DNA from: Bradyrhizobiaceae bacterium
Lineage (GTDB): Bacteria > Pseudomonadota > Alphaproteobacteria > Rhizobiales > Xanthobacteraceae
Length of the DNA stretch: 64,000 nucleotides
Direction: 5' to 3'
Assembly (NCBI GenBank): GCA_003963145.1
Contig: RXJJ01000012.1
Span: 225,778-289,777 of the forward strand
Shown here: positions 39,196 to 42,051 of the stretch, one piece after another
How the letters are laid out: the number at the start of each line of letters is the position of its first letter
Numbering within the stretch: position 1 is the stretch's first letter
Translations under genes and position numbers: made by a program
The notes under the pieces: generated by a model
The model's database searches: none
Told to the model about the DNA's origin: nothing
The model's input: only the letters and a program-made list of their open reading frames with translations

Positions 39196-40407
39196 TCAGG
39201 CCATCGCCTTGGTCATGTTCTCGGCGACCTTGTCGAGGAAGCCGGTGGTCGAGAGCCAGCGCTGATCCGCGCCGACCAGCAAAGCGAGGTCCTTGGTCAT
39301 GAAGCCGCTCTCGACGGTGTCGACGCAGACCTTCTCCAGTGTCGCGGCGAATTTCGCCAGTTCCGGATTGTTGTCGAGCTTGGCGCGGTGGGACAGGCCC
39401 TGCGTCCAGGCGAAGATCGAGGCGACGGAGTTGGTCGAGGTCTCCTTGCCCTTCTGATGTTCGCGGTAATGGCGGGTCACGGTGCCGTGCGCGGCTTCGG
39501 CTTCCATAGTCTTGCCGTCCGGGGTCAGCAGCACCGAGGTCATCAGGCCGAGCGAGCCGAAGCCCTGCGCCACGGTGTCGGACTGCACGTCGCCGTCGTA
39601 GTTCTTGCAGGCCCACACATAGCCGCCGGACCATTTCAGCGCCGAGGCCACCATGTCGTCGATCAGGCGGTGCTCGTAGGTGATGCCCTTGGCCTCGAAC
39701 TTCGTCTTGAACTCGGCGTCGTAGATTTCCTGGAAGATGTCCTTGAAGCGGCCGTCATAGACCTTGAGGATGGTGTTCTTGGTGGACAGATACACCGGAT
39801 AGCCGCGCGACAGGCCGTAGTTCAGCGAGGCGCGGGCGAAGTCGCGGATCGAATCGTCGAGGTTGTACATCTCCATCGCGACGCCCGCGCCCGGCGCCTT
39901 GAAGACTTCCTTCTCGATCACGGTGCCGTCCTCGCCGACGAATTTCAGCGACAGCGTGCCCTTGCCGGGGAACTTGATGTCGGTGGCGCGATACTGGTCG
40001 CCATAGGCATGGCGACCGATGATGATCGGCTTGGTCCAGCCGGGGACGAGGCGCGGCACGTTCTTGCAGATGATCGGCTCGCGGAAGATCACGCCGCCCA
40101 GAATGTTGCGGATGGTGCCGTTCGGCGACTTCCACATTTCCTTGAGATTGAATTCCTTCACGCGGGCTTCGTCCGGGGTGATGGTCGCGCACTTCACGCC
40201 GACGCCGTACTGCTTGATGGCGTTGGCGGCGTCGATGGTCACCTGGTCGTTGGTGGCGTCGCGGTGCTCGACCCCGAGGTCGTAATATTTCAGGTCGATG
40301 TCGAGGAAGGGATGGATCAGCTTGTCCTTGATGTACTTCCAGATGATCCTTGTCATCTCGTCGCCATCGAGTTCGACAACGGGGTTGGTCACCTTGATTT
40401 TGGCCAT
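39196..40407 (-). CDS. icd: NADP-dependent isocitrate dehydrogenase
   Basis: [64 protein letters not shown]; start trimmed to 40407. Confidence 0.96.
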
Positions 40408-40667
40408 GGCTGATCGTGCCTTCTTGAGGGGGGAATGTTGGGGAAAGAGTTTGTCGAGCGGGCTATAGCACCCCGCTCGCAGGCGCGAAAGGCAGCCCAA
40501 AGCAGTAGGGGGTTGTGGCGCGGGCCTCGGCCTGCGGCGCGGGCGGGCGTGCCTGTTTTTTGGCCTGTTTTTCGGTGGAATCGCCGATTCAACACGATTC
40601 CGTAACCTATTCATTTTATTATGGATTTACGGACGGCGCGGCGGCTTTCTCACGCCGTTTTCGGGCG

Positions 40668-40814
40668 TTGATTCTGTTTCTTCAGAACTTGAATCAACGC
40701 CTTAAGTGCTTGAATCAACGCGTTCGCGGCTTGATTCAAAATCTTCGGTCCCTGATTCAAAAACTTCGCGATCCGATTCAATCCCTTCGCGGCTTGAATC
40801 AGAACGCGCGATGG
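40668..40814. repeat. Seven-unit 21-bp degenerate tandem array with one GANTC site per unit at constant phase
   Basis: Units start at 40668, 40689, 40710, 40731, 40752, 40773, 40794; core (T/C)(T/C)GAWTC(A)(A) in every unit. Confidence 0.9.
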
Positions 40815-40857
40815 GTGAAGGACGCCCTTCGATTCACAGCTTAAGGTCCTCCATCCC

Positions 40858-42051
40858 GTGTCAGGTACGGACAGAACCAAAACGCCGGTGACGCCGGACG
40901 GCCCCATCGTCATCCTCGTCGAGCCGCAGCTTGGCGAGAACATCGGCATGGCGGCGCGGGCGATGGGCAATTTCGGGCTGACGCGTTTAAGGCTGGTGAA
41001 GCCGCGCGACGGCTGGCCGAGCATGAGCGCGCAGCGCGCCGCGGCCGGCGCCGATCACATCCTGACCGCAGTCGAACTGTTCGACAGCGTGGAGGCCGCG
41101 GTCGCCGACTGCTCGCTGCTGTTCGCGACCTCCGCCCGCGCGCACGATCAGGCCAAGCCCGTGGTCGGGCCGGAAGCGGCGGCGCGCGAGACGATCGGTG
41201 AAACCGCCAAGGGCGGCACGGTGGGAATCCTGTTCGGCCGCGAACGCTGGGGTTTGCAGAACGAGGAGGTCGCGCTCGCGGGCCGCATCGTCACCTTTCC
41301 GGTCAACCCCGCTTTCGCCTCGCTCAATCTGGCGCAGGCCGTGCTGCTGATGGGCTATGAATGGTTCAAGCATGCGACCGGCGGCGCGCTCCCGCACGCG
41401 ATGCCCGAGCGCTCCGAGCGCGCCTCCAGCTATCAGATGCAGACATTCTTCGACAATCTCGTCGCCGAGCTCGACAAGGTCGAATTTTTGCGCCCGCCCG
41501 AGAAGCGCGACGTGATGCTGGTCAACCTGCGCAACATCTTCAGCCGCATGGAGCCGACCAAGCAGGACATGCACACCCTGCACGGCGTGGTCATGGCGAT
41601 TGCCGAGGGCCGCAAGGGGCCGGCCAATGGTGGCGTGCTGGATGGCGAGGGCGCGACGCGGCTGCGCGCGCTGCTCGCCGAGCACAGCGATGGCCGCGCA
41701 CAGAGCGATTCAGGCGGTTCCGTGCGCGGGCTGGCGCGGCTGCTGCGGCGTAACCCGACCGATGCCGAGCGTCTGTTGTGGCAGGCGCTCAAAACCGACC
41801 GACGCTTCGCCGCGCAGTTCAAGCGCCAGACCCCGGTCGGGCGGCATATTCCCGATTTCGTATCGTTCGTTCGCCGCATCGCTGTCGAGATCGTCCATGA
41901 AGGTGAAAACGAGTCGGTCGCGCGCGACCGTATCGCGCGCAAGGCATGGCTCGAGGCGCGCGGCTACCGCGTCTGTTTCCTGCATGCGGGCGATATCGAG
42001 CAGGATCTGGCGCCGCAGCTCGACAGGATCGCCGCGCCGGGAAGCGATTAA
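40858..42051 (+). CDS. trmJ: TrmJ-type tRNA 2'-O-methyltransferase (SPOUT) fused to C-terminal DUF559 endonuclease-fold domain
   Basis: N-term IVILVEPQLGENIGMAARAMGNFGLTRLRLVKPRDGWP ... FGRERWGLQNEEVALA; C-term RLLRRNPTDAERLLWQALKTDRRFAAQFKRQTPVGRHIPDFVSFVRRIAVEIV..GENESVARDRIARKAWLEARGYRVCFLHAGDI (DUF559 pattern); GTG start. Confidence 0.88.
   Translation: MSGTDRTKTPVTPDGPIVILVEPQLGENIGMAARAMGNFGLTRLRLVKPRDGWPSMSAQRAAAGADHILTAVELFDSVEAAVADCSLLFATSARAHDQAKPVVGPEAAARETIGETAKGGTVGILFGRERWGLQNEEVALAGRIVTFPVNPAFASLNLAQAVLLMGYEWFKHATGGALPHAMPERSERASSYQMQTFFDNLVAELDKVEFLRPPEKRDVMLVNLRNIFSRMEPTKQDMHTLHGVVMAIAEGRKGPANGGVLDGEGATRLRALLAEHSDGRAQSDSGGSVRGLARLLRRNPTDAERLLWQALKTDRRFAAQFKRQTPVGRHIPDFVSFVRRIAVEIVHEGENESVARDRIARKAWLEARGYRVCFLHAGDIEQDLAPQLDRIAAPGSD

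Follow-up and report, generated by a model that had tools for sequence, protein, structure and literature searches.

The array studied here, from an Afipia-like soil bacterium, lies between icd, encoding isocitrate dehydrogenase (39196-40407, minus strand, start MAKIK at 40407), and a gene for a trmJ-like SpoU methylase with a C-terminal DUF559 domain (PF04480; 40858-42051, plus strand), and is located upstream of both neighbours in the window, that is, the whole stretch of 64,000 nucleotides that was analysed. The fusion of a TrmJ-like SpoU domain with DUF559 (PF04480) is also present in Bradyrhizobium and in other Afipia. Seven contiguous 21-bp units occupy positions 40668-40814, each with a GANTC at its positions 3-7, and the listing of sites in the window recovered the phased starts 40670, 40691, 40712, 40733, 40754, 40775 and 40796 at exact 21-bp steps, as the original prediction had described. 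The sense of the units, judged by the YSAAS block discussed below, is that of the minus (icd) strand. On the plus strand they read TTGATTCTGTTTCTTCAGAAC (unit 1, 40668-40688, GANTC at 40670), TTGAATCAACGCCTTAAGTGC (unit 2, 40689-40709), TTGAATCAACGCGTTCGCGGC (unit 3, 40710-40730), TTGATTCAAAATCTTCGGTCC (unit 4, 40731-40751), CTGATTCAAAAACTTCGCGAT (unit 5, 40752-40772), CCGATTCAATCCCTTCGCGGC (unit 6, 40773-40793) and TTGAATCAGAACGCGCGATGG (unit 7, 40794-40814, with a degenerate second block). Two details of the earlier description have to be revised. The statement that the GANTC sites are mostly inside TTGAWTCAA was too strong, as the full 9-mer occurs in only three of the seven units (40689, 40710 and 40731), and divergence does not describe the whole remainder of the unit, since a second block, CTTCR on the plus strand and YGAAG on the minus strand, is also conserved about one helical turn from the core.

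Four further GANTC sites, at 40578, 40586, 40596 and 40831, bring the total to 11 in 258 bp, for which base composition predicts about 0.9, in keeping with the value of about one given originally. The last of them (40831-40835) lies 35 bp past the preceding GANTC and off the 21-bp phase. The other three form a block that continues into CGTAACCTATTCATTTTATTATGGATTT (40578-40630), homologous to GATTCAAACGATTCYGTAACCYYATTGATTTATAAGGATAATTT, the sequence that precedes the array in relatives. A block of the form GATTCAAACGATTC...GTAACCYYATTGATTTATAAGGATAATTT (40578-40630 in the window) stands ahead of the array in many Afipia, and in a weaker form in Bradyrhizobium. To call it a promoter would be a guess, and a scan of this block with the sigma-70 consensus gave no match.

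Such a cluster is not expected by chance. GANTC is depleted in the 64-kb window, with 133 sites present versus 221 expected from composition and 343 in dinucleotide shuffles, and elsewhere in the window at most five fall within 258 bp. When the 133 sites were placed at random 2000 times, the longest 21-bp chain had four sites, and chains of seven are expected at about 1e-14. Genome-wide statistics are based on pattern searches, by which the array is the sole occurrence of the three-in-a-row 21-bp pattern in its 3.86-Mb genome. The predicted intrinsic curvature of the array is mildly raised (2.5th percentile within the window, 4.6th when compared with GC-matched segments), a signal too weak to support further conclusions.

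Conservation of the array and constraint on its unit

Orthologous regions were collected by trmJ and not by spacing, giving 28 loci in Afipia, the genus of the window according to the named scans (27 relatives plus the window genome). At these loci 148 pairs of GANTC are 21 bp apart, 118 are 42 bp and 88 are 63 bp apart, whereas other distances average 3.6 pairs. At least two pairs spaced by exactly 21 bp are found in 25 of the 28 loci, and most icd-trmJ arrays of the genus have four to nine units. Thus, in the orthologous regions where the original prediction had proposed to compare spacing with sequence, both the spacing and the core turned out to be conserved across the genus.

The array tracks neither gene alone. 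In about ten Afipia species trmJ is some 3 kb away and the array is still beside icd; in those that were checked it directly follows the stop codon (3') of an MFS transporter gene. The form found in Bradyrhizobium and Tardiphaga has three units, of which the last enters the ribosome-binding region of trmJ and ends at its start codon, while the gene on the other flank is different from icd. The proposal that the array specifically controls icd and/or trmJ is therefore not upheld, as it parts from either gene and is found elsewhere beside unrelated genes with a preference for 3' ends. A 5' regulatory role is possible for the Afipia and Bradyrhizobium arrays, which lie upstream of trmJ and icd.

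The plus-strand consensus of 175 Afipia units is [TC]TGAWTCARnnYCTTCRSnnS. Between closely related Afipia, TGAWTC (positions 2-7, including the central W) shows 1-5% substitution, compared with 7-41% at the other positions of the unit and 23.6% beyond the units. The core is GAATC or GATTC in 173 of the 175 units, GAGTC in two and GACTC in none, which, together with the conservation of TGAWTC, indicates a constraint stricter than the CcrM site GANTC. A similar pattern was observed in a comparison across species at three other loci of the genus g115, one behind an acetyl-CoA hydrolase gene, one behind an HpcH/HpaI gene and a third group. There GAATC changes at 2.5-10% versus 51%, the A of the second block at 12% and most other positions at 30-60%, and the array persists from species to species in intergenic regions whose other sequence has fallen to about 50% identity. 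Several arrays (L266, L335, L343, L344 and L345, genus g115, and also L105) have a conserved word, TTAAAGTG(G), close by; in the g115 loci it lies downstream of the array, and in Bradyrhizobium sp. NFR13 it is found upstream of the three-unit array.

A tandem layout with a variable number of units (2 to 9) could also be produced by a neutral minisatellite or a degraded mobile repeat devoid of function. However, substitutions are 5 to 20 times fewer in the core than around it, and the unit is restricted to a single order and a single exact spacing. Moreover, units of the same array are no more alike (similarity 0.48) than units of different species (0.47), indicating that the array is old and maintained and not freshly duplicated. 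A neutral origin is contradicted by this substitution pattern and can be given very little credence.

Since 21 bp correspond to seven codons, the units might instead encode heptads (L-N/I-Q-x-L-x-x), which would form an amphipathic helix on both strands. Both LxQ frames are indeed open in most loci, and the LNQ frame in unit sense has somewhat longer stop-free stretches. However, second positions of the LxQ frame are the most variable in Afipia (mean of about 0.20 vs 0.14 and 0.15), the codon-position rates in g115 (0.34, 0.35 and 0.38) show no excess at the third position, the frame is lost at steps of 41, 43, 44 or 22 bp, and the open reading frames have no Pfam match. On the codon-position rates and the frame-breaking steps, heptad coding was rejected as highly improbable despite the open LxQ frames.

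Recurrence and orientation in the Hyphomicrobiales

The unit is not restricted to Afipia. Of 150 genomes of the order, 32 contain pairs of the form TGAWTCA-N14-TGAWTCA; the reversed control is found in none, and the same search returned three pairs at 20 bp and five at 26 bp. In the 56 pairs listed, 49 have co-oriented cores, i.e. are direct repeats, and the spacers share the consensus YSAAS at unit positions 13-17. Afipia spacers did not contribute to the definition of this consensus; 98 of 146 Afipia unit pairs fit it in the icd sense and only 2 of 146 in the opposite sense. The oriented pattern TGAATCA-N5-YSAAS-N4-TGAATCA was present in 42 of 398 genomes (control, 0). In the family-level search the reversed control was zero except for one genome, and among sampled members of the class from outside Hyphomicrobiales the only matches, mostly in small genomes, did not have the spacer motif. 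Broader scans for three units also matched Bacteroidales, Bacillus and Geomonas, which we tentatively read as coding repeats or AT-rich chance matches. A viral origin was discarded, as only 5 of 2.9 million viral contigs carry the oriented pair. The search for GANTC in 21-bp phase among relatives, suggested in the original prediction, thus showed an oriented unit recurring across the order with clean controls. Together with the conservation of spacing and core in the genus, this lends good support to the proposal, also made there, of a binding array for a putative protein.

Outside the trmJ loci, 42 intergenic arrays were located between 18 convergent, 20 tandem and 4 divergent gene pairs, counts that carry some error because the genes of the relatives were called by a simple ORF picker. 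In related DNA about 19-23% of the regions are convergent, 50% tandem and 27-30% divergent, and the excess of convergent regions has a p of about 0.003-0.0005. Gene ends facing the arrays are 3' ends 56 times (median distance 80 bp) and 5' ends 28 times (210 bp). Among the neighbours are a FemAB-like gene and genes that encode domains of gyrase/topoisomerase IV subunit A, class II tRNA synthetases (one alanyl), Hsp20, phosphomannomutase, an RsmE-type methyltransferase and FliP. The direction of the units relative to the neighbouring genes is mixed, and this, with the location bias, points to an element acting at the DNA level rather than to a feature of a transcript.

Two further observations concern the neighbours. 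Three arrays lie beside genes for SPOUT-type RNA methyltransferases (L135:1180-2007, L264:675-1445 and window 40858-42051); the genes are trmJ, a SpoU gene that may start within the array, and an RsmE-like gene. In several genera of the family the arrays lie inside the first codons of open reading frames of about 420 amino acids (L047, L048, L052-L054, L059, L094, L098 and others); those tested (L054, L094 and L098) are of the FemAB-like type (PF04339), and their domain begins close to the array or past it.

The central base of the Afipia cores alternates between A and T, being complementary in 101 of 131 neighbouring unit pairs (49% expected). This alternation is not accounted for by a simple head-to-tail model, and recent duplication in 42-bp modules was discarded as its source, because units at lag 2 show no added similarity. 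It does make neighbouring units complementary, and transcribed units could then pair into hairpins with UUCR-type loops and act as a leader, an attenuator or a sponge RNA. In agreement with this, Afipia arrays fold better than shuffled sequences (z from -2.4 to -5.7), and the three-unit form sits in the trmJ leader. However, the fold excess appears on both strands, the pairing partners differ between species with little covariation at spacer positions, and the one long array of another family that was tested does not fold (z of -0.1 and -1.3). Arrays of other families are direct repeats (the 49 of 56 pairs mentioned above), and the mixed orientation relative to genes also argues against a role in RNA. 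A search of the array against Rfam gave no match. A hairpin common to the arrays is not supported, and we consider an RNA-level element quite unlikely.

A putative binding platform and its relation to known systems

According to these data, it is on balance probable that the window array is a member of an order-wide family of non-coding cis-elements, serving as a head-to-tail platform for a putative DNA-binding protein of the Hyphomicrobiales whose role would probably be architectural. From the exact two-turn spacing, the oriented two-block unit, the tandem layout and the strong selection acting on the contacts, we infer cooperative head-to-tail binding. The 21-bp unit would present GAWTCA followed, one helical turn on, by an (S)AA block, and each head-to-tail unit could be read by one protomer or one dimer. 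Cooperative binding of adjoining units may then line one face of the helix with protein over about 150 bp and act on the local architecture of the chromosome, through bending or as a supercoil or transcription boundary, in the manner of E. coli BIMEs. An architectural role is preferred to that of a classical promoter operator because the arrays favour 3' ends and convergent regions.

As every unit in the window has a CcrM site, methylation could tune this binding through the cell cycle or, alternatively, the bound protein might shield the sites from CcrM. A different view is that the phased row of GANTC is itself what is selected, with a SeqA-like or GcrA-like reader, or CcrM itself, acting at sites along one DNA face, whether hemimethylated or fully methylated, and timing a cell-cycle event. 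The presence of GANTC in every unit in spite of its depletion in the window is in line with this, the genome of the window encodes homologues of CcrM (with a RAMA domain) and GcrA, and shielding of GANTC from CcrM by MucR has been documented (PMC5172544). However, 173 of 175 cores have W for N, and the flanking T and A and the second block are conserved, none of which CcrM requires. Moreover, some in-register units that do not have GANTC persist, and units across the order are asymmetric, unlike the symmetric GANTC. We therefore regard selection for methylation reading as unlikely, and a putative methylation layer on the array as plausible. A combination of the two ideas, in which a Hyphomicrobiales-specific protein would polymerise on phased GAATCA units and read their CcrM methylation as a SeqA-like, cell-cycle-coupled element at selected intergenic sites, seems to us a rather speculative possibility.

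The arrays represent an order-wide and strongly conserved DNA element of the well-studied rhizobia and their relatives, built on a defined 21-bp code. The 147-bp array is a ready bait for its putative binding protein, and offers a direct test of whether anything beyond GcrA-type promoters reads CcrM methylation. Should the binder be a nucleoid protein, site-specific chromosome architecture would become defined in Alphaproteobacteria. Searching the literature for the motif and for GANTC arrays did not bring up any report on tandem GAWTCA units of 21 bp, an absence that is uncertain given partial coverage of subscription journals.

Among known systems, iterons and tandem operators consist of direct units placed head-to-tail and phased with the helix, as is typical of cooperative binding, and the arrays resemble them in this layout and in the two-turn spacing of about 21 bp. 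However, neither a replication gene nor a dedicated regulator adjoins the array, the neighbours being housekeeping genes. REP/BIME elements are biased towards gene 3' ends and are bound by gyrase and IHF. The arrays share with them the extragenic location and the bias to 3' ends and convergent regions, which holds for the order-wide set, the window array being upstream of both neighbours. REP/BIME are short repeats of enterobacterial intergenic DNA (PMC3733652), inverted palindromes of 20-40 bp with hairpin potential and hundreds of copies, whereas the arrays are direct, AT-richer and rare, with exact 21-bp phase and a CcrM site per unit.

We know of no SeqA-like reader of GANTC. MucR prefers AT-rich DNA, and the array differs from its targets in keeping a precise GAWTCA core. 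The likeness to MucR (PMC5172544) and to SeqA, which acts on hemimethylated GATC in E. coli, would be that the state of a methylation site is read by, or depends on, a bound protein.

The CcrM-associated intergenic repeats (CIR) of Caulobacter and Brucella are described, in a summary (PMC2229807) of the work of Chen and Shapiro (2003), as elements of unknown function of about 110 bp, with two inverted-repeat arms and a linker, a GANTC at the loop of one arm, and several similar copies per genome. The array has no such inverted-arm architecture, and its inverted pairs result simply from the core being palindromic. As far as that description goes, CIR and the arrays have in common an intergenic location in Alphaproteobacteria and a conserved GANTC inside the repeat, and differ in that the arrays are made of diverged 21-bp direct units with two to nine GANTC, one array being found in the window genome. 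CIR are the closest known elements, with a different architecture.
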